This document shows, piece by piece, positions 18,514 through 33,621 of a stretch of 33,621 nucleotides of DNA. A model generated the notes under the pieces. It saw nothing but the letters and a program-made list of their open reading frames with translations, was not told where the DNA came from and ran no database searches. The stretch is from Acidobacteriota bacterium (lineage in GTDB: Bacteria > Acidobacteriota > Vicinamibacteria > Vicinamibacterales > UBA2999): NCBI GenBank assembly GCA_030650395.1, contig JAUSDY010000082.1, positions 1 to 33,621 of the forward strand. Reading direction: 5' to 3'. Numbering within the stretch: the stretch's first letter is position 1; every line of letters starts with the position of its first letter. A program made the position numbers and the translations under genes.

Positions 18514-19660
18514 GTGGCCGTCGTCATCGAAGAACTTGTCCGCCGATCCACCGACCTGCTCAAGCGGGCCGCCGACATGCGGAGCTATCTTTGACGGGGC
18601 GCACGATCCCAGCGAGCTAGCCCAACTCGAACAAAAGGTCGCGGCGCCGGATTTCTGGAACCACCAGGCCGAGGCGCAGAAGACCCTCCAGCGCCAGCGC
18701 CGGCTCGCCGAAGACATCGAGCTGCGCGACAGCTTCGTAAAAAAGATCGACGACATCGGCGTGCTGCTCGAGTGGGCGCAGGCGGGCGAAAGCGTCGCCG
18801 CCGACCTCGACAAAGCGCTCGATGCGCTCGAGGCCCAGGTCGAAGCCGCTGAAACCAAGAAGATGCTCGGCGGCGAGCACGACAACGCCAACGCGATCGT
18901 GACGATCCACCCGGGCGCCGGCGGCACCGAGTCGCAAGACTGGGCCGAGATGCTGCTGCGGATGTATCTGAAGTGGGCGGAGCGCAAGGGCTTCAAGCGC
19001 GAGATTCTCGATTACCAGCCCGGCGAAGAAGCCGGTCTCAAGAGCGTCACCTTCACGCTGAACGGCGACTACGCTTTCGGGCTGATGTCGGCCGAGGCCG
19101 GCGTCCACCGGCTGGTGCGGATTTCGCCATTCGACCAGGCCGCCCGCCGCCATACCTCGTTTGCGTCGCTCTATGTGTGGCCCGAGTTCGACGATGAGAT
19201 CGAGATCGATATTCCTGAGAAGGATCTGCGCATCGACACCTTCCGGTCGAGCGGCGCCGGCGGCCAGCACGTCAACGTCACGGATTCCGCGGTCCGCCTC
19301 ACCCACCTGCCCACCGCCATCGTCGTGTCGTGCCAGAACGAGCGGTCGCAGCACAAGAACCGGGATGTCGCGATGAAGGTGCTGAAGGCGCGGCTCTACG
19401 ACCTCAAGCAGAAAGAGCAGCAGGACAAGCTGTCGCAGATCGGCGGCACCAAGAAGGACATCGCGTTTGGCAGCCAGATCCGGAGCTATGTGCTCCAGCC
19501 GTACCAGATGATCAAGGACCATCGCACCAAGTACCAGGAAGGGCAAGTCGAGAAGGTGTTGAACGGCGACATCGACCCGTTCATCAAGACTTACCTGATG
19601 CAGAAATCTTCAGGGACTCTTGGGGCTTCGGCCACTGAGGACGACGATCTCAGATCCTAG
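18514..19660 (+). CDS. prfB: peptide chain release factor 2, with programmed +1 frameshift
   Basis: RF2 ends translation at UGA and UAA. Translation starts at GTG 18514, eight bases downstream of the AGGAG core (18503-18507), and meets an in-frame TGA at codon 27 (18592-18594) in the sequence TATCTTTGAC. A +1 shift at CTT continues as GAC (18593) to the TAG at 19658-19660. The coding parts are therefore 18514-18591 and 18593-19660, giving 381 residues. The mature protein shows the SPF anticodon-like tripeptide (RISPFDQ, about residue 204) and the GGQ catalytic motif (GAGGQHVN, about 249-251). The shift lets RF2 control its own level, as in most bacteria. The last residues (DLRS) and the stop come from a GATCTCA heptamer array. 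Confidence 0.95.
18581..18595 (+). promoter_or_regulatory. prfB programmed +1 frameshift signal
   Basis: The slippery CTT and TGA-C are preceded by GGAG (18581-18584), an internal Shine-Dalgarno-like stimulator four bases before CTT. The E. coli site is AGGGGGTATCTTTGAC; here the equivalent reads GCGGAGCTATCTTTGAC, so the stimulator is shorter and one base further away, while TATCTTTGAC is identical. Confidence 0.93.
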
Positions 19661-19690
19661 ATGTCAGATCTCAGATCAATTGCAGATCTT
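19646..19690. repeat. GATCTCA heptamer array at the 3' end of prfB
   Basis: Five consecutive 7-base units (GATCTCA, GATCCTA, GATGTCA, GATCTCA, GATCAAT; 19646-19680) are followed by degenerate GATCTTG/GATCC. The first two units are translated and carry the prfB stop. The same unit recurs at 22563, 23031 (inverted), 27496 and, within a longer unit, at 33486. Confidence 0.88.
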
Positions 19691-19753: not shown

Positions 19754-22555
19754 TTGGCCCTCACTCCTGGCACACGTCTCGGCTCGTACGAGATCCTCTC
19801 CCCCCTTGGGGCGGGCGGGATGGGCGAGGTGTATCGCGCCCGTGACACCAAGCTCGGTCGCGACGTCGCGATCAAAGTCCTGCCTGACTCGTTCGCGAAT
19901 GATCCGGAACGCCTCGCCCGCTTTCAGCGGGAGGCGCAAGTGCTCGCGTCGCTGAACCACCCGAACATCGCGCACATCCACGGCCTCGAAGAATCGGGCC
20001 CTTCGCAAGGCTCAGGGCAGGCGAGGGTGGGCGCGCTCGTCATGGAGTTGGTCGAAGGCGACGACCTATCGGTGCTCATCGCGCGCGGACCGATGCCGCT
20101 CACCGAGACGCTGCCGATCGCGAAGCAGATCGCGGACGCGCTGGAAGCGGCGCACGAGCAGGGCATCATCCATCGCGACCTGAAACCCGCGAACATCAAA
20201 GTCCGCGCCGACGGCACGGTGAAGGTGCTTGACTTCGGGTTGGCGAAGGCGCTGGATCCGGCCGCCTCATCGAGCGCGGAGGCGATGAACTCGCCGACGC
20301 TCACCGTCCGCGCGACGCAGATGGGCCTGATCATCGGGACGGCGGCCTACATGGCGCCCGAACAGGCACGGGGCAAGGCCGTCGATCGGCGCGCCGACAT
20401 CTGGGCCTTCGGCGTGGTCCTCTACGAGATGCTCACAGGCCGGCGCGCGTTCAAGGGCGAAGACATCTCGATCACGCTCGCGAGCGTGCTCAAGGAGGAT
20501 GTGAGCTGGCAGGCGCTGCCCCCCGATCTGCCCGAGCCGGTGCGCCGGTTGTTGCGGCGCTGCCTCGAGAAGGATCCGAAGCGGCGGTTGCGCGACATCG
20601 GCGAAGCGCGGCTCACACTCGAGGACCCGGCGTCGTCTGAGCCCGCGACGAGCGAGCCGGTCGCGGCCGCGACTGCCCCTCCCGCGGCCACACCATTCTG
20701 GCGTCGCGCGCTCCCCGCTGTGGCCGTTGTCGTCGCAAGCGCCCTCACGGGTCTTGCCGTGTGGACCGCGACGCGCCCCGCGCCTGCGATACCACTGCCC
20801 GTACAGCGCTATCCGATCACGCTGCCGGCGTCCGCCCCGTACGTCGGCGAGAACGGAGGCGAGCTGGCGGTGTCTCCCGATGGGATGCGCCTTGTGTACG
20901 CTGGGTTCGACGCGGGGAAACGGGTCTTGTATCTCCGTAACCTGGATCAGCTCGAGGCCCAGCCGATCCGCGGCACCGACGACGCGTTCAACCCGTTCTT
21001 TTCGCCGGATGGCGAATGGATCGGTTTCTTCACCGCGGCTGGATCCCCGGCCGGCAAGCTCAAGAAGGTGTCAGTTAGAGGAGGTCCGCCGCTCACGCTG
21101 TCCGACGCAAGCATTCCGACCGGTGCCTGGCTCGCGGACGACACGATCGTGTTCACGCGCTCGACCGGCACCGTGTGGTCGCTTTTTCGCGTGCCGGCCG
21201 CGGGTGGCCTGGCCACAAATCTGACCACTCCTGACCCGGCAAAAAAAGAGGTCAGGCACGCATGGCCGGAGGCGCTGCCCGGCGGGAACGACATCCTGTT
21301 GACCATCTCTGCTACGGGGTCGTTCGACGACGCGCGTATCGCGGTCTTGTCGCTCGCCACCGGTAGCTACCACACGGTCGTCGAGCAGGGGTATCACGCA
21401 CGCTACGTGCCGACCTGGTTTGCATCGCTGAAGCGCCCTTCGCGCGAAAGCGGGCACCTCGTCTACGTATTGAGCGGCAACCTGATGGCGGTACCGTTCA
21501 ACGTCAAGCGCCTCCAGGCCACAGGGCCACCGGTCCCGATCGTCGAGGGCGTTCGTGGACGATCGGGCACGGGCGATGCTTCCTTCGCCGTCTCTCGCAC
21601 TGGGTTCCTAACCTACGCGCCTGGAACCACGATAGGCGGCATCCAGCGAACGCTGGTCTGGGTGGATCGAAACGGGCGCGAGGAGCCGATCGCCGTGCCA
21701 ACGAGGACATACACCTATCCTCGACTGTCTCCCGATGGCACGCGCGTCGCGCTGGACATCCGCGATCAGGAGAACGACATCTGGGTCTGGGATCTCGCGC
21801 GGCAGAACCTCACGCGCCTGACGTTCGATCCAGGGAGCGACATATCACCGGTGTGGACGCCCGACGGACGACGGATCTTTTTTGCCTCGCAACTCACCGG
21901 CACTACCCAGCATGTGTTCTGGCAGGCGGCCGACGGCACGGGCCAGGCCGAGCGGCTGGTGGAAAGTCCCAATCAGCAACTGCCTCAGGCCGTCTCTCCT
22001 GACGGGAAGCGGCTGCTGTTCAGGGACACCAATCCCAAGACGTCTGTGGACGTCGACATGCTGTCGCTCGACGATCGCAAGGTGACACCGCTCTTGCACA
22101 CGACCTTCGCGGAGCAGAACCCGGAAATCTCGCCGGACGGCCGTTGGATCGCGTACGAGTCGAACGAATCGGGTGTGGGCCAGATTTACGTGCGTCCGTT
22201 TCCCGGCGTCGACAGCGGCCGCTGGCAGGTGTCGATCGCCGGTGGCACGCGCCCAATGTGGGCGCGCAGCGGACGTGAGTTGTTCTATGTCGTTAGTGGC
22301 GACGCGGTCCGCATGATGGCGGTGCCCATTCAGGCCGGCGCGACATTCTCGGCCGGCAATCCCCGCGTGCTCTTCGAAGGACGGTACGTCGCGTCGTCCG
22401 ACAGAAGTGCTCGTACCTACGACGTCGCCGCGGACGGCCAGCGGTTCCTGATGATCAAGAACGCGGCCACCGACGTCGCCACGGCCACCGGCCCGTCCTT
22501 CATCTTCGTCCTGAACTGGTTCGACGAGCTCAAACGCCTCGCGCCGGCGAAATAG
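19754..22555 (+). CDS. transmembrane serine/threonine protein kinase with TolB/WD40-like propeller domain
   Basis: The N-terminal Hanks-type kinase (about residues 10-290) has the Gly-rich loop GAGGMGEVY, Lys41, the catalytic loop HRDLKPANIK (140-149), DFG (160-162) and AYMAPEQARG. One membrane helix follows (about 312-332, ALPAVAVVVASALTG). The extracytoplasmic part (about 345-933) contains PD40/TolB-like propeller blades (SPDGEWIGFF, SPDGTRVALD, TPDGRRIFFA, SPDGRWIAYE). Such receptor-like kinases are strongly expanded in Acidobacteriota; ligand and substrate are unknown. The TTG start gives MALTPGTRLGSYEIL, the usual beginning for this group. Residues of about 81-92 (SGPSQGSGQARV) between kinase strands 4 and 5 are an insert encoded by a family A palindromic element. 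Confidence 0.93.
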   Translation: MALTPGTRLGSYEILSPLGAGGMGEVYRARDTKLGRDVAIKVLPDSFANDPERLARFQREAQVLASLNHPNIAHIHGLEESGPSQGSGQARVGALVMELVEGDDLSVLIARGPMPLTETLPIAKQIADALEAAHEQGIIHRDLKPANIKVRADGTVKVLDFGLAKALDPAASSSAEAMNSPTLTVRATQMGLIIGTAAYMAPEQARGKAVDRRADIWAFGVVLYEMLTGRRAFKGEDISITLASVLKEDVSWQALPPDLPEPVRRLLRRCLEKDPKRRLRDIGEARLTLEDPASSEPATSEPVAAATAPPAATPFWRRALPAVAVVVASALTGLAVWTATRPAPAIPLPVQRYPITLPASAPYVGENGGELAVSPDGMRLVYAGFDAGKRVLYLRNLDQLEAQPIRGTDDAFNPFFSPDGEWIGFFTAAGSPAGKLKKVSVRGGPPLTLSDASIPTGAWLADDTIVFTRSTGTVWSLFRVPAAGGLATNLTTPDPAKKEVRHAWPEALPGGNDILLTISATGSFDDARIAVLSLATGSYHTVVEQGYHARYVPTWFASLKRPSRESGHLVYVLSGNLMAVPFNVKRLQATGPPVPIVEGVRGRSGTGDASFAVSRTGFLTYAPGTTIGGIQRTLVWVDRNGREEPIAVPTRTYTYPRLSPDGTRVALDIRDQENDIWVWDLARQNLTRLTFDPGSDISPVWTPDGRRIFFASQLTGTTQHVFWQAADGTGQAERLVESPNQQLPQAVSPDGKRLLFRDTNPKTSVDVDMLSLDDRKVTPLLHTTFAEQNPEISPDGRWIAYESNESGVGQIYVRPFPGVDSGRWQVSIAGGTRPMWARSGRELFYVVSGDAVRMMAVPIQAGATFSAGNPRVLFEGRYVASSDRSARTYDVAADGQRFLMIKNAATDVATATGPSFIFVLNWFDELKRLAPAK
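19998..20022 (+). repeat. intragenic palindromic element, family A (inside kinase gene)
   Basis: Arms GCCCT and AGGGC enclose TCGCAAGGCTC (19998-20018), followed by AGGC. It shares both ends with the valS copy at 4730-4757 but has a shorter centre. It is read in frame and adds a Gly/Ser/Gln-rich loop to the kinase N-lobe. Confidence 0.7.
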
Positions 22556-22562
22556 CATCGCA

Positions 22563-22608
22563 GATCTCAGATCTTGGATCTCAGATCAATTATAGATCTC
22601 AGATCGAA
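22563..22608. repeat. GATCTCA heptamer array, left arm flanking the S23-like gene
   Basis: Units GATCTCA, GATCTTG, GATCTCA and GATCAAT run from 22563 to 22590. After TATA come GATCTCA and GATCGAA (22595-22608). The array begins within ten bases of the kinase stop and ends three bases before the stop of the S23-like gene. The facing arm in inverted sense is at 23031-23153. Confidence 0.9.
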
Positions 22609-22611
22609 GGA

Positions 22612-22959
22612 TTAGCGCTTTGCCGTCTTCAGCGACGCGACGAATATCGCCGTGAGCTCATCGGCTTCTTTGAGGAGCTTCTCGGTTCTCGCCGCCGTCA
22701 CTAAGTGGGAATCAATCATCAATTCCAGCCAAAAGAGGGACTCATCCGCCTCTTCGAGAACGATACCGAGCTTCGAGATGAACTCTGCACGAGACCGTGC
22801 CCTGCAAGAGGCGCGGTAGTTTGCAGCCACCGACGTGCCACTGTCGATCAGTTGCTGGCCCAGACGACGTCCGTCGAGTGTTGGAGGTAGTTCGCGACAC
22901 AGGCCGATCACGTCAACGGCGAATCGCTTGGTTCGGTCTTTGAGTTCTTTCGGCGTCAT
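22612..22959 (-). CDS. four-helix-bundle protein, S23 / 23S rRNA intervening-sequence protein family
   Basis: This 115-residue, all-helical protein has the characteristic family pattern: KELKDRTKRFAVDVIGLCRELP, then GRRLGQQLIDSGTSVAANYRASCRARSRAEF and KLGIVLEEADESLFWLELM. Family members were first described inside intervening sequences of 23S rRNA genes and are also found free-standing and in relation to Avd of diversity-generating retroelements. The biochemical role is not settled. I chose the Met at 22959 (MTPKELKDR) over 22989 because the conserved helix starts there. The gene is enclosed by heptamer arrays of opposite sense on its two sides, so gene and arrays may form one unit. Its GC content appears lower than in the neighbouring genes. 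Confidence 0.85.
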   Translation of the reverse strand: MTPKELKDRTKRFAVDVIGLCRELPPTLDGRRLGQQLIDSGTSVAANYRASCRARSRAEFISKLGIVLEEADESLFWLELMIDSHLVTAARTEKLLKEADELTAIFVASLKTAKR

Positions 22960-23030
22960 GCCGGCAAGTAGCTGCAGCCGGAATGCCAACGCGAAACAGG
23001 TCGATTTCCACGGGTTCGGGGCAGGCTCCC

Positions 23031-23153
23031 AATCTGAGATCGCAAAATCTTCAATCGATCAAGACGTTCCGGCAGGCAAAATCCTCCAATCTGAAATCTT
23101 CAATTGATCTGCAATCTGAGATCTGCGATCTGAGATTCTTGAGACCTGAGATC
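23031..23153. repeat. TGAGATC heptamer array, right arm flanking the S23-like gene
   Basis: Units of the reverse-complement sense (TGAGATC and variants TGAAATC, TGCGATC, TGAGATT) occur at 23035, 23092, 23117, 23124, 23131 and 23147. Those at 23117-23137 are directly consecutive. A unique stretch of about 35 bases (around 23060-23085) interrupts the array. It ends six bases before the stop of the class A PBP gene. Confidence 0.85.
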
Positions 23154-23159
23154 GACAGG

Positions 23160-25421
23160 TCACTGTCTGATTGGCTGCGTGCCAGAGATGAACACTTCAT
23201 TGACGACAGCGCCGCTGCCGCCGTACGCGGGCTCGCCAGTGCTTCGATCGACGGGCATGAAGACGATGTTGCCGGGTGACTCGAATTCGGGTGGGTGCTC
23301 GCGGTTGCCGTAGAGGTCGATGTAGACCTTCATGAAGTCGATCCACGTCGGCAGCGCCGCCGTCGTTCCTGTTTCACCGGGACCGATCGGCTTTTTCTCG
23401 TCGTTGCCAATCCAGACACCGACCGTGATGTTGGGGTCGAAGCCGACAAACCACGCGTCGGTGTAGTCGTCCACCGTGCCGGTCTTGCCGGCCAGCGGCC
23501 AGTTGAGCGACAGCGCGGCCGCGCCGGTGCCGCGCTGGATCACACCCTGCATCAGGTTGGTGAGCACGTAGGCCGTGTCAGCGCGGATCGCGTCTTTGGG
23601 CTGCGGCCGGCGCTCTTCGAGCAGCGTACCTTCGCGGTCGGTGATGGCCTTCGCCAGGAACGGGTCCATGCGGATGCCGTGATTCGGGAACGCGGAGAAC
23701 GCGCTCGTCAGCTCCATCAGCGTCACTTCCTGAGCCCCGAGCGCCATCGAGAGAAAGGGGCGGAAGTCGGTGGAGAAGCCGAACTTCTTCGCGTACGAGG
23801 CGACCTGCTCCGGGCCGAGCATCGCCATGACCTTCACGGCAGGAATATTGCGCGACTGCTCGAGCGCGTGGCGCAGCGTCATCGCGCCTTGGTACTTGCG
23901 GTCGTAATTGCCGGGGCGATACGGCGGCTGCCCCGCGCCGGCGTCGAAGGTGGTCGGTTCGTCAACCAGGATCGTCGTCGGCGTCAGCCCGCGATCGATC
24001 GCGGCGGTGTAGAGCAGCGGCTTCACCGTGGAGCCCATCTGCCGATACGCCTGCGTGGCGCGGTTGAACTTGCTGCGCGCAAAACTATAGCCGCCGACCA
24101 TCGACAGCACCTGGCCGGTGTGGTTGTCGATGGCGACCAAGGCGCCCTCGACGAGCGGCGTCTGTTCGAGCAGCACGGTCGCGGCTTTGCGGCCGTCCTC
24201 GATCGCCACGAGCTCGACCTCGATCAGATCGCCGGGCTTGAGCACGTCCTTCAGCGAGGGCTTGCGCGGCCACTTGTCCAGGCTGGCCTTGGTCACGTCG
24301 GCGGTCATCGCGCCGATGCGCACGTGCGCGCCGGCATCGCTCACCGACACCACGACGGCTGGAACGATGTTGCCCGCTGCCATTCTTCGGAGCCAGCGAT
24401 CGTGCTTGAAGCCGGCGATAGTGGCGCCTTCACCGATCACGTTGCGGCGCTGCCGGCGGAAGCCGCGCCGCTTGTCGACGCGCCTCAGGCCGCGATCGAC
24501 GGCGTCGTTGGCGGCCTGCTGCAGACGTGCGTCGAGCGCCGTGCGCACCGTGAGCCCGCTTTCATAGAGAGCCTTGGCGCCGTAGCGGGCCTCGAGGTAC
24601 TTGCGCACCTCTTCGAGAAAGTACGGCGCGATGGTCGGGATCTGGGCCGGGTCGCCACGCGTGACGATCGGCTTCTTGATCGCGGCCTCGGCTTCGTCGC
24701 GCTTGATATAGCCTTCCTCCGCCATCCGCGTCAGCGCGTAGTTTCTGCGCCGCAGCGCCGCGTCCGGATGGATGTAGGGGCTTTGCTTGGCGTTGCCCTG
24801 CAAGATGCCCGCAATCATCGCGGCCTCTTCGAGCACAAGGTCTTTCGCGTGCTTGCCAAAGTAGATCTGCGACGCGGCCTCGACACCGTAGGCGCCATGC
24901 CCGAAATACATCTGGTTGGCGTAGAAGGTGAAGATCTCCTGCTTGGTGTAGCGCTTCTCGATCTGGACCGCGAGGAGCTGTTCCTTGACCTTGCGCTCCC
25001 AGGTTTTCTCGTCGGTGAGAAACAGCTTGCGGGCCAGCTGCTGCGTCAGCGTGCTCGCGCCGCCGACCTTGCGTCCGGCGAGCGCGTTCTTCATCACCGT
25101 CCGCATGATGCCGGTCGGGCTCAGCCCGAAATGCGAAAAGAAGTCCGCGTCTTCGGCCGAGAGGATCGCCTGCCGCAGCCGCTCCGGAATGTCGTTGTAG
25201 TGCAGGACGACGCGGCGCTCGACGGCAAACTCGCCGACGAGTTGATCGTCGCGGCCAAGCACTCGCGTGATCGTGTTCGGCGCGTACTGATCCAGCGCAC
25301 TGACAGCAGGGAGGTCGTCGGAGTAGGCGAAGAGCACGCCGCTCAGCGTGCCGAGGAGCGCCGCGGCCACAAAGAGCGCCACCACGCCGGCACGACGGGC
25401 GAACCGCAGGGAAATCTTCAT
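23160..25421 (-). CDS. mrcA: penicillin-binding protein 1A, bifunctional class A peptidoglycan synthase
   Basis: This 753-residue type II membrane protein polymerises and cross-links peptidoglycan. A signal-anchor helix is at about residues 10-31. The glycosyltransferase (GT51) domain has the catalytic Glu in [14 protein letters not shown], with [16 protein letters not shown] and [12 protein letters not shown] following. An OB-like insert of about residues 290-420 separates it from the transpeptidase, which has SxxK as GSTVK (Ser about 463), SxN as SRN (about 523) and KTG as [10 protein letters not shown] (about 645). It is divergent from dnaK, with 120 bases between the start codons. The opposite strand of the gene is free of stop codons in one frame for most of its length, which is a shadow and not a gene. 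Confidence 0.95.
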
Positions 25422-27495: not shown

Positions 27496-27589
27496 GATCT
27501 CAGATCTCAGATCTCAGATTTCAGATCAATTTGATCGAAGATCTGAAATCTGCGATTGATCTGCAATCTGAGATCTGAGATCTGAGATT
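27496..27589. repeat. two-armed GATCTCA / TGAGATC heptamer array between dnaK and dnaJ
   Basis: The left arm holds GATCTCA three times, then GATTTCA and GATCAAT (27496-27530). The right arm holds TGAAATC (27543-27549), TGCAATC, TGAGATC, TGAGATC and TGAGATT (27562-27589). The arms are inverted complements and could form a hairpin of 30 bp or more. The last unit ends one base before the dnaJ ATG, leaving no room for a normal Shine-Dalgarno sequence. Confidence 0.92.
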
Positions 27590-29168: not shown

Positions 29169-29798
29169 GTGGTGAGGAAGTTCGATTCGCTCGCATCTGA
29201 ATCCGCAACACTGCACGCTTACCTTCGCGAGATTGCCAGCTTCCCCAGCCTCTCTCCAGACGACGAGCGGCATCTCGGCCGCCAGATCCAGCAACACGGC
29301 GATGAAGACGCGCTTGGGCGCCTCGTGCAGTCGAACCTGCGCTTCGTCGTGACCTACGCCAAGCGCTTTCGCCGCCTGGGCGTGCCGCTGCTCGATCTGA
29401 TTCACGAGGGCAACCTCGGGATGATCGAAGCCGCGCGCCGCTACGATCCGTCGCGCGGGCAGAATTTTCAGAGCTCAGCGGTGTGGTGGATTCGCCAGGC
29501 TGTCTTGCATTTGTTGACGGAAGCCGCGCGCACGCCGGCGGTGAGCGCGTCGGGCTTGCTGGCCGCGGCCGTGGCCGGGCGCCAGGTCGAGGCCATCCGC
29601 GTCGCGCTCGAGCACGCCCAGGGCGCCACCATCCCCGAAAGCCAGGAACACTCGGACTTACTGACGACTCTGCAGGACGACGCCAAGCGTCGTCGATCGT
29701 CGCGCAAGGGCCGCAAGGGCGGCGCCGGGCTGCCGTTCGACGTCACCACCCTTCAGGCCGCGCGCTACCCCAGCGTGCTTCGCGGATATCTGAACTAA
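29169..29798 (+). CDS. sigma70-like protein with regions 1.2 and 2 only
   Basis: The 209-residue protein begins like a primary-type sigma factor. Region 1.2 is at residues 15-46 (LHAYLREIASFPSLSPDDERHLGRQI), the core-binding helix is VQSNLRFVVTYAKRF, then LLDLIHEGNLGMIEAARRYDPSRGQNF, and region 2.3-2.4 is VWWIRQAVLHLL (105-116). E. coli Gln437, which reads the -10 element, is kept (Gln110), but Thr440 and Arg441 are Leu113 and His114. After this, regions 3 and 4 are missing: residues 120-209 are Ala-rich, then basic (KRRRSSRKGRKGG), and no other frame restores a sigma3/sigma4 domain. The protein cannot contact a -35 box in the normal way. The start is uncertain; GTG 29169 is chosen, with GTG 29172 next. 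It follows hspR by 55 bases. Confidence 0.72.
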   Translation: MVRKFDSLASESATLHAYLREIASFPSLSPDDERHLGRQIQQHGDEDALGRLVQSNLRFVVTYAKRFRRLGVPLLDLIHEGNLGMIEAARRYDPSRGQNFQSSAVWWIRQAVLHLLTEAARTPAVSASGLLAAAVAGRQVEAIRVALEHAQGATIPESQEHSDLLTTLQDDAKRRRSSRKGRKGGAGLPFDVTTLQAARYPSVLRGYLN

Positions 29799-29839
29799 GA
29801 GTTCAGAGTTCAGAGTTCAGAGTTCAGAGTTAAGAGTTC
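29798..29839. repeat. AGAGTTC heptamer array (six units)
   Basis: Six consecutive heptamers: four AGAGTTC, one AGAGTTA and one AGAGTTC. The first base is the last base of the sigma-like gene's stop codon, and the last unit ends five bases before the ATG of the DnaC-like gene. No inverted arm is present. Confidence 0.95.
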
Positions 29840-29844
29840 ACGGT

Positions 29845-33485: not shown

Positions 33486-33621
33486 ATCTCACTATTAGAT
33501 CTCACTATTAGATCTCACTATTAGATCTCACTATTAGATCTCACTATTAGATCTCACTATTAGATCTCACTATTAGATCTCACTATTAGATCTCACTATT
33601 AGATCTCACTATTAGATCTCA
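33486..33621. repeat. 13-base tandem array ATCTCACTATTAG, truncated by window end
   Basis: Ten complete identical copies of ATCTCACTATTAG run from 33486 to 33615, and six bases of the next copy reach the window edge. Each junction contains GATCTCA, the same heptamer as the arrays at 19.6, 22.6 and 27.5 kb, alternating with CTATTA. Perfect copies suggest recent expansion. The array lies upstream of the beta-barrel gene, where its promoter should be. Confidence 0.97.

Follow-up and report, generated by a model that had tools for sequence, protein, structure and literature searches.

S23-family genes and the inverted tandem arrays around them apparently form a widespread kind of bacterial mobile element

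The window analysed here is the whole 33,621-nucleotide contig JAUSDY010000082.1 (C71 in our numbering) of the Acidobacteriota assembly GCA_030650395.1. It carries an S23-family gene (22612-22989, minus strand) for a four-helix-bundle protein of 125 aa, counted from a TTG start within an open frame of 148 aa, that matches the PF05635 and TIGR02436 profiles with 53.8 bits (cut-off 33.8) and 83.1 bits (cut-off 24), respectively. The gene is free-standing, flanked by convergent kinase and penicillin-binding-protein (PBP) genes, and GATCTCA arrays occupy the gaps on both of its sides up to these neighbours. The left arm of the cassette, a GATCTCA-type heptamer array (22557..22612, plus strand), lies 1 bp from the kinase stop codon (22553-22555; the kinase gene ends at 22555). 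The right arm (23081..23136, minus strand) is its inverted copy and continues in degenerate units to about 23150, close to the PBP stop codon (23160-23162). Between the right arm and the gene lies the 5' leader (22990..23080, minus strand), in which more degenerate GATC-type units can be read from the sequence. As reverse complements the two arms are alike at 45 of 56 positions, a non-repeat ATCAATT linker included, and they score 30 as inverted flanks, against an off-diagonal median of 9.5 in the comparison of the S23 loci of this genome. Thus, the sequence-only reading of this locus, an S23 gene between mutually inverted GATCTCA arrays that fill the space up to the neighbouring genes, was accurate.

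In a fold of the minus-strand RNA of the cassette, the arms form one long stem and hold the gene in the loop (z = -5.5, compared to 20 shuffles). Complementary ends with an ORF in the loop of the stem are also a feature of the rRNA intervening sequences (IVS), of which ORF-less forms are known in other bacteria. A search for an rRNA location of the gene found no Rfam family at gathering score anywhere in the window. Since the protein matches S23 families only, in two profile libraries, no catalytic domain was recognised, and this includes any transposase domain inside the cassette. Note that no clean pair of empty and filled sites was obtained for this cassette among the eight other genomes of the genus: the PBP gene was matched to or near its end in seven of them and partly in the eighth, and the kinase gene does not lie beside it in the sequences read from these genomes. 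For this reason, an array located between dnaK and dnaJ and another cassette of the same genome (L004) were compared instead.

The array between dnaK and dnaJ (27496..27588), identified in the array listing and by RNA folding, is a two-armed, gene-less GATCTCA derivative that shares the ATCAATT linker and the heptamer unit with the cassette, and it folds to -58 kcal/mol (z = -7.6, 200 shuffles). It had been read as something like an empty site; its two arms, its unit and the absence of a gene stand, but it is better described as a derivative made of arrays alone. None of the eight other genomes of the genus has the GATCTCA array at this junction. The junction measures about 0-12 bp in G004, G005 and G007, carries an array of a different unit, AAGGCTG, in G001, and has, by eye, short heptamer-like stretches in G002 and G006. 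A one-armed array-only GATCTCA copy (19636..19690) lies over the prfB 3' end, upstream of the kinase gene. In the annotated frame of prfB (18536-19660), the GATCTCA units at 19636-19660 encode the final residues and the stop codon. Two more array-only elements of the window carry the units of other S23 cassettes: a two-armed one with the unit AAGGCAG of cassette L012 (3950..4043), and one with the units ATAACCA and TTGGTTA, the unit of cassette L013 (139..220). The unit of a one-armed AGAGTTC array (29798..29840) was seen in none of the arms of the genome's 15 S23 loci. Finally, 10.5 perfect tandem copies of a 13-bp unit (ATCTCACTATTAG) occupy 33486-33621 and reach the edge of the contig; they may have arisen in the assembly, or the assembly may have stopped here because the array is long.

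The 5.41-Mb genome of the window contains 15 S23 matches, 11 of them above the Pfam cut-off; L012-L015 are below it yet above the TIGR02436 cut-off of 24 (38.1, 37.8, 38.1 and 25.3 bits, respectively). In all pairings of these loci, the 350-bp flank from one side was compared to the 350-bp flank from the opposite side, taken as its reverse complement. The median flank score was 31 for own partners and 9.5 for mismatched pairs. Own pairs exceeded the 95th percentile of the mismatched pairs in 14 of 15 cases and the 99th in 13, and 13 ranked first; their observed sum was reached in 0 of 20000 permutations. The two loci not ranked first were L014, which has a one-sided array, and L004, whose best partner was its sister copy L005. 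The period of the arms is 7 bp in L008 (the window cassette), L012, L013 and L014, 8 bp in L006, L010 and L011, 9 bp in L007 and L015, 10 bp in L003, 13 bp in L004 and L005, and 18 bp in L001 and L002; L009 has no clear period. Paralogues at least 55% identical to their nearest relative share its period (L001/L002, L004/L005, L007/L015, L010/L011 and L012/L013).

Inverted arrays accompany S23 genes well beyond this genome. S23 loci were taken from relatives, from the phylum, from named genomes that were scanned (with Planctomycetota, Bacteroidota, Clostridia, Proteobacteria, Acidobacteria and candidate phyla among their titles), from 15 of those named genomes, and from gammaproteobacteria; they are the best-scoring matches of each search and not a random sample. 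Inverted flanks scored above the 99th percentile of mismatched flanks at 22 of 30 loci of the relatives, 17 of 29 of the phylum and 47 of 76 of the named genomes (76 of 80 loci were used, four having less than 150 bp on one side). In the remaining set, made up of the 15 genomes and the gammaproteobacteria and partly overlapping the named set, they did so at 17 of 46 loci (46 of 50 used). The pooled set held 184 of the 204 loci, six being too short and the others duplicates. A joint criterion (summed periodic-array score of at least 24 and inverted-match score of at least 15) picked out 137 of these 184 distinct loci and 1 of 336 control windows, which were taken 500 or 900 bp further out at the same loci. 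A looser, either/or criterion picked out 165 of 184 loci and 32 of 336 control windows. The earlier suggestion that protein and arrays make one unit came with a proposal to look for flanking inverted short-period arrays at S23 genes, and S23 genes in array-free contexts were to count against it. The survey bears the suggestion out, since 137 of the 184 loci are arrayed and 19 have no array by either rule.

The period of the arrays varies from 7 to 18 bp overall; among the 159 loci with a clear one, it is 7 in 120 and 8 in 27. On a tree of the S23 proteins that takes in 182 of the 184 loci, 158 of them labelled with a period, the period class changes 21 times, whereas 500 shuffles of the labels gave 33.9 changes on average and never fewer than 28. 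Array period follows the S23 protein lineage. The arms have a polarity, as in 124 of the 137 loci the upstream arm, read on the coding strand, contains more G than C. With mechanically called ORFs, the median distance of the arms is 2 bp to the 3' end of a gene (n = 138) and 17 bp to a 5' end (n = 111); the closeness to 3' ends may reflect a choice of target, or merely selection against harm. A mirrored order of units between the arms, with native exceeding shuffled order in 94 of 120 loci, was not retained, because the region is picked by the alignment itself and the comparison is biased.

S23 genes are patchily distributed, being present in 43 of 60 relatives and in 46 of 99 genomes of the phylum, and at some loci the frame contains stop codons. 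One query gave zero S23 matches in phages. Among the matches listed for 321 gammaproteobacterial genomes, there was no close homologue of the crystallised S23 protein XCC0516 (identity at most 60%), and a link between XCC0516 and the published GGGAATC arrays is offered as a prediction. Most of the gammaproteobacterial S23 loci that could be tested have inverted heptamer arrays of other units. Two of these, L187 and L191, from two gammaproteobacteria, have by eye an alike flank beside the cassette, with an adenosylhomocysteinase-like gene; if common to both, this flank would suggest older, inherited copies.

Evidence of movement came from junctions that are filled in one replicon and empty in relatives, five of which were found on cyanobacterial plasmids. 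At site 1, in Calothrix brevissima, S23 lies between an integrase gene and the next gene, and the junction is empty in Aulosira, Tolypothrix and Nostoc carneum. At site 2, in Nostoc edaphicum, it lies between nrdB and nrdA, and the junction is empty in Calothrix NIES-4105, a single relative with 85% identity. Sites 3 and 4 are two different junctions within one operon of Nostoc plasmids. Site 5 is a reversed S23 gene on Aulosira plasmid 2 (TIGR02436, 93.6 bits), where the start of the next gene differs too. In the annotated plasmid cassettes, S23 is the sole gene between the neighbours. Moreover, one S23 element was found at three unrelated sites (L218; L210; L205 with L211), and the homology between these copies (78-81% identity with blastn) reaches from one array to the other and ends with them. 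Of the eight cyanobacterial plasmid S23 loci, four (L205, L209, L210 and L211) initially had no matched arms. Once the copies were aligned, L205, L210, L211 and L218 (which is at the position of L209) proved to have short arms, and therefore short or diverged arms escape the Smith-Waterman test.

The same was seen in the chromosome. Two copies in the genome of the window, L004 and L005, are 82.5% identical over 560 bp, from array to array, and their flanks have no match. The L004 junction could be compared in four of the eight other genomes (the flanks are about 1.8 kb apart in G008, on split contigs in G001 and G002, and both missing in G005). The genome of the window (G000) has S23 between the arms at this junction, G006 and G007 are clean, and G003 and G004 have an array only. 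No consistent target-site duplication was observed at the five plasmid sites and one chromosomal site; the candidate repeats TTCTA (site 4) and ATG (site 3) are both ambiguous. The gain and loss of whole cassettes between related plasmids, and the two arm-to-arm copies at unrelated sites of one genome, agree with the one-unit suggestion, and we are nearly certain that arms and gene travel together as a mobile unit.

Arrays without a gene, often two-armed, are dispersed through this genome. In 945 kb, 128 arrays of period 7 were found (score of at least 12). The same 945 kb held 1, 1, 25, 40, 63 and 8 arrays of periods 4, 5, 6, 8, 9 and 10, 4, 27, 28, 97, 20 and 24 of periods 11 to 16, and 4 and 3 of periods 17 and 19, counts in which 14 is twice 7, 8-10 and 13 are S23 arm periods as well, and coding DNA is expected to give multiples of three. 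At a slightly looser cut-off, 131 of 138 period-7 arrays did not lie within 450 bp of an S23 gene. The units of 76 of these 131 are at most one mismatch away from the arm unit of L008, L012, L013 or L014, compared to a chance mean of 15.5 and maximum of 26 (200 letter shuffles); the other 55, AACTCTT and AGGGATC among them, lack a matching S23 arm of period 7. When neighbouring arrays have similar units, they are mostly inverted (35 of 40 pairs).

These array families are unevenly amplified within the genus. In whole-genome BLAST counts, which take in conserved-flank and nested matches, the dnaK-dnaJ GATCTCA query gave 94 matches in G000, 27 in G001, 25 in G007 and 2-6 in each of the remaining six genomes. 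The period-13 query (L004) gave at least 100 in G000, 34 in G001 and 1-4 in each of the seven remaining, and the period-10 query (L003) gave 59 in G000 and 1-10 elsewhere in the genus (eight genomes). Period-7 arrays numbered 37 in 400 kb from ten S23-bearing genomes and 4 in 317 kb from ten S23-free genomes of the same order, in stretches that hold no S23 match among the matches listed and with units of two letters or fewer left out; the two groups are unmatched by kinship, since four of the S23-bearing ones belong to the same genus as the genome of the window. Two S23-bearing genomes (G007 and G038) had zero period-7 arrays in the 40 kb sampled, and two S23-free ones (G039 and G049) had some. 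A strict cognate rule, by which GATCTCA arrays would be found only beside a close S23 gene, was rejected: G001 and G007 have GATCTCA arrays and no near-full-length S23 protein more than 50% identical to that of the window, which counts against strict dependence. The related S23 loci in these two genomes carry other arms, for example 8-bp units with GATCT in L307 and L313. At the junction occupied in G000 by the period-10 cassette L003, G004, G006 and G008 have arrays of a longer, GTCGGGAGGGCACTGCTT-like unit (L388, L377 and L389, respectively), so unrelated array families use one intergenic gap.

The S23 protein of the window is predicted by AlphaFold2 to form four helices (pLDDT 93.3). The nearest solved structures in a fold search were the S23 proteins 2rld and 2gsc; the latter is described, in the part of the source available, as a ring of five four-helix bundles, that is, a pentamer. 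The retroelement protein Avd (4dwl, 8ub7) aligned with TM 0.74-0.75 and Foldseek E 0.14-0.19 (8ub7: TM 0.75, E 0.14). Plant pectin methylesterase inhibitors (E 0.016) rank above it, so the likeness to Avd is not specific by fold alone. Against the Avd profile, the protein of the window gave no match at E 0.001, and the plasmid proteins L207 and L210 scored 28.5 and 27 bits, far under the cut-off of 80. A resemblance between S23 and Avd is noted in the text available from PMC10053308, and in 8ub7 Avd is part of a retroelement reverse-transcriptase complex. A search of the genome for a reverse transcriptase beside S23 gave a single RVT_1 match, at a contig end (C113:127-528), 10.5 kb away from the nearest S23 gene of that contig. 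Taken with the fold, the weak sequence matches to Avd and the way in which period tracks the protein tree make it plausible that the S23 protein acts on the repeat hairpins, as the sequence-only reading had proposed.

Several known systems resemble these elements in part. As summarised in the available text of PMC3116915, REPINs are dispersed extragenic inverted doublets that form hairpins, with each family tied to a cognate single-protein gene. The dispersed inverted doublets described above, which carry the flanking sequence of a cognate gene, are of this kind. The ends differ, since those of REPINs are single palindromes whereas those of the S23 cassettes are tandem arrays of 7-18 bp units with a lineage-dependent period. 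The cassettes also carry S23 (PF05635) while RAYT is a Y1 tyrosine transposase, and because the protein inside is not a Y1 transposase, they fall outside REPIN/RAYT. With the 23S rRNA IVS, as far as these are described in the accessible parts of PMC4990558 and PMC11270868, they share an S23 ORF within a long stem of terminal inverted repeats; in the Coxiella IVS, GACAGAT heptamers in variable number even precede the S23 ORF (PMC4990558). In contrast to the IVS, they are free-standing between protein genes, have tandem-array ends and are accompanied by dispersed array-only copies. The Avd protein of diversity-generating retroelements (DGR) shares its fold class with the protein of the window, and is likewise a small protein of a nucleic-acid element; the differences are the distance of S23 from the Avd cut-off and the location of the sole RVT_1 match of this genome on another contig.

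Intergenic heptamer arrays themselves have long been known. They include the STRR arrays of cyanobacteria (PMC2670836), whose features (a 7-bp tandem unit, intergenic position, hairpin formation) are found in the arrays of this genome, and they have been surveyed across 7006 genomes (PMC6344855). Going by the excerpts of these sources, they share with the S23 arrays the 7-base period, the intergenic location, a partly inverted pairing and a position close behind the upstream gene. Two cases differ. The GGGAATC repeats of Xanthomonas form 70 and 75 convergent pairs in two species; 90% lie between the same ORFs in both, which makes them stabler than control regions, and they are generally apart from mobile elements, according to the portions available of PMC4692102. 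The TAACTGA sets of a Beggiatoa relative are nearly all direct, with one inverted (PMC4679880, as excerpted). Here, arrays are identified as the ends of S23 cassettes and as their derivatives. In the open-access literature, as far as its text was available and with subscription papers and preprints outside, we found no link between S23 and heptamer arrays; priority is therefore uncertain. Two further reports touch on the subject: a reverse transcriptase and a 23S rRNA IVP protein are both named in a figure legend about CRISPR adaptation modules (PMC10910872, in part), and the title of Vioque 1997, as cited in PMC2858038, places STRR repeats within the RNase P RNA genes of cyanobacteria, which may parallel the rRNA intervening sequences.

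We conclude that there are mobile S23 elements, comprising an S23 gene, its cognate tandem-array ends and array-only derivatives, in an economy like that of REPIN/RAYT that is run with an unrelated protein; this kind of element is apparently widespread and undescribed. In our proposal, an element consists of a single S23 gene with an array of a short tandem unit on each side, the two arrays being inverted relative to one another; the unit is mostly of 7 bp and sometimes of 8-18 bp. The arms look like arrays of putative binding sites, in inverted orientation and with a period that tracks the protein. The S23 protein, whose homologue 2gsc is pentameric, would recognise its own unit, probably within the long hairpin formed by both arms, as RNA or as single-stranded DNA, and would mobilise its own cassette and, in trans, the array-only copies. 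That the protein is the mover or an essential cofactor we regard as probable. With less confidence, and because Avd, which partners the reverse transcriptase in DGR, is the known protein closest in fold as well as in sequence, we propose that the element may move as an RNA hairpin, which a reverse transcriptase or a polymerase of the host, provided in trans, would copy back. The RNA form, which is put forward tentatively, is favoured by the kinship with Avd, by the long stem that the arms form as RNA and by the rRNA intervening sequences. The main alternative to it would be a single-stranded DNA hairpin, as for REPINs.

A different kind of array-bearing element was also observed. An element of about 180 bp (L222:1441-1622, and L225-L230) occurs with fixed ends at seven unrelated plasmid sites, abutting GATAA, and the L222 copy interrupts an S23 gene. 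GATAA is the kind of fixed target used by IS200/IS605 transposases. This element looks like a non-autonomous one of IS200/IS605 type that carries S23-type heptamers. The L222 insertion was dropped as direct proof of S23-driven movement, since GATAA at seven copies suggests an IS200/IS605-type mover, and some array-bearing elements may therefore be moved by other enzymes.

Could S23 then be a passenger in general, binding or regulating array hairpins that another enzyme, a Y1/HUH transposase such as TnpA or RAYT, moves? The array-only L222 element and its six copies, with their fixed ends beside GATAA, speak for this, as does the one Y1 transposase match in the whole genome of the window (contig C1). 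That single transposase would, however, need to serve six arm periods, and the tie between period and the S23 tree, the roughly sevenfold higher density of sampled period-7 arrays in S23-bearing genomes and the plasmid cassettes with S23 alone between their neighbours all argue against a passenger role, which we consider unlikely. Less likely by some way is that S23 and its arms are a host-beneficial, mainly vertical structure, for example a regulator or a parS-like site, spread by recombination and not selfish. Dispersed arrays could serve as binding sites for it, L205 and L211 lie in one operon, and L187 and L191 apparently have a common neighbour (by eye); yet the patchy presence among relatives and in the phylum, 15 S23 matches with six array periods in one genome, the uneven amplification within one genus and the stop codons in some S23 frames are hard to reconcile with such a role. 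Least probable of all is that the arrays are host terminators or mRNA-stabilising hairpins grown by slippage in which S23 genes are tolerated: the arms do lie 2 bp (median, n = 138) off gene 3' ends and make strong hairpins, such roles have been suggested for the cyanobacterial 7-bp repeats (PMC2670836, in the text available) and the Xanthomonas arrays are stable in position (PMC4692102, likewise), but arms gained or lost together with the gene at junctions empty in relatives, units specific to each S23 lineage and arms common to copies at unrelated sites contradict it as the sole explanation. A host role could nonetheless be gained later.

The mobile S23 element is thus our preferred reading, and it may have wider consequences. 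In its broadest form, S23 elements would be pan-bacterial, would spread as cassette and hairpins probably via RNA and would be the source of most prokaryotic heptamer arrays, the IVS being tolerated S23 elements. We hold this to be possible rather than probable, a shade less doubtful than the RNA route of movement taken by itself, and the positional stability of the Xanthomonas arrays limits the part that concerns the origin of heptamer arrays; the almost wholly direct sets of the Beggiatoa relative lower its probability too. S23 elements may explain where the widespread seven-letter repeats between bacterial genes come from, and a relation between S23 elements, Avd-dependent retroelements and rRNA intervening sequences is suggested. 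If S23 reads a unit that varies between lineages, it would be a naturally diversified and very small sequence-reading protein.
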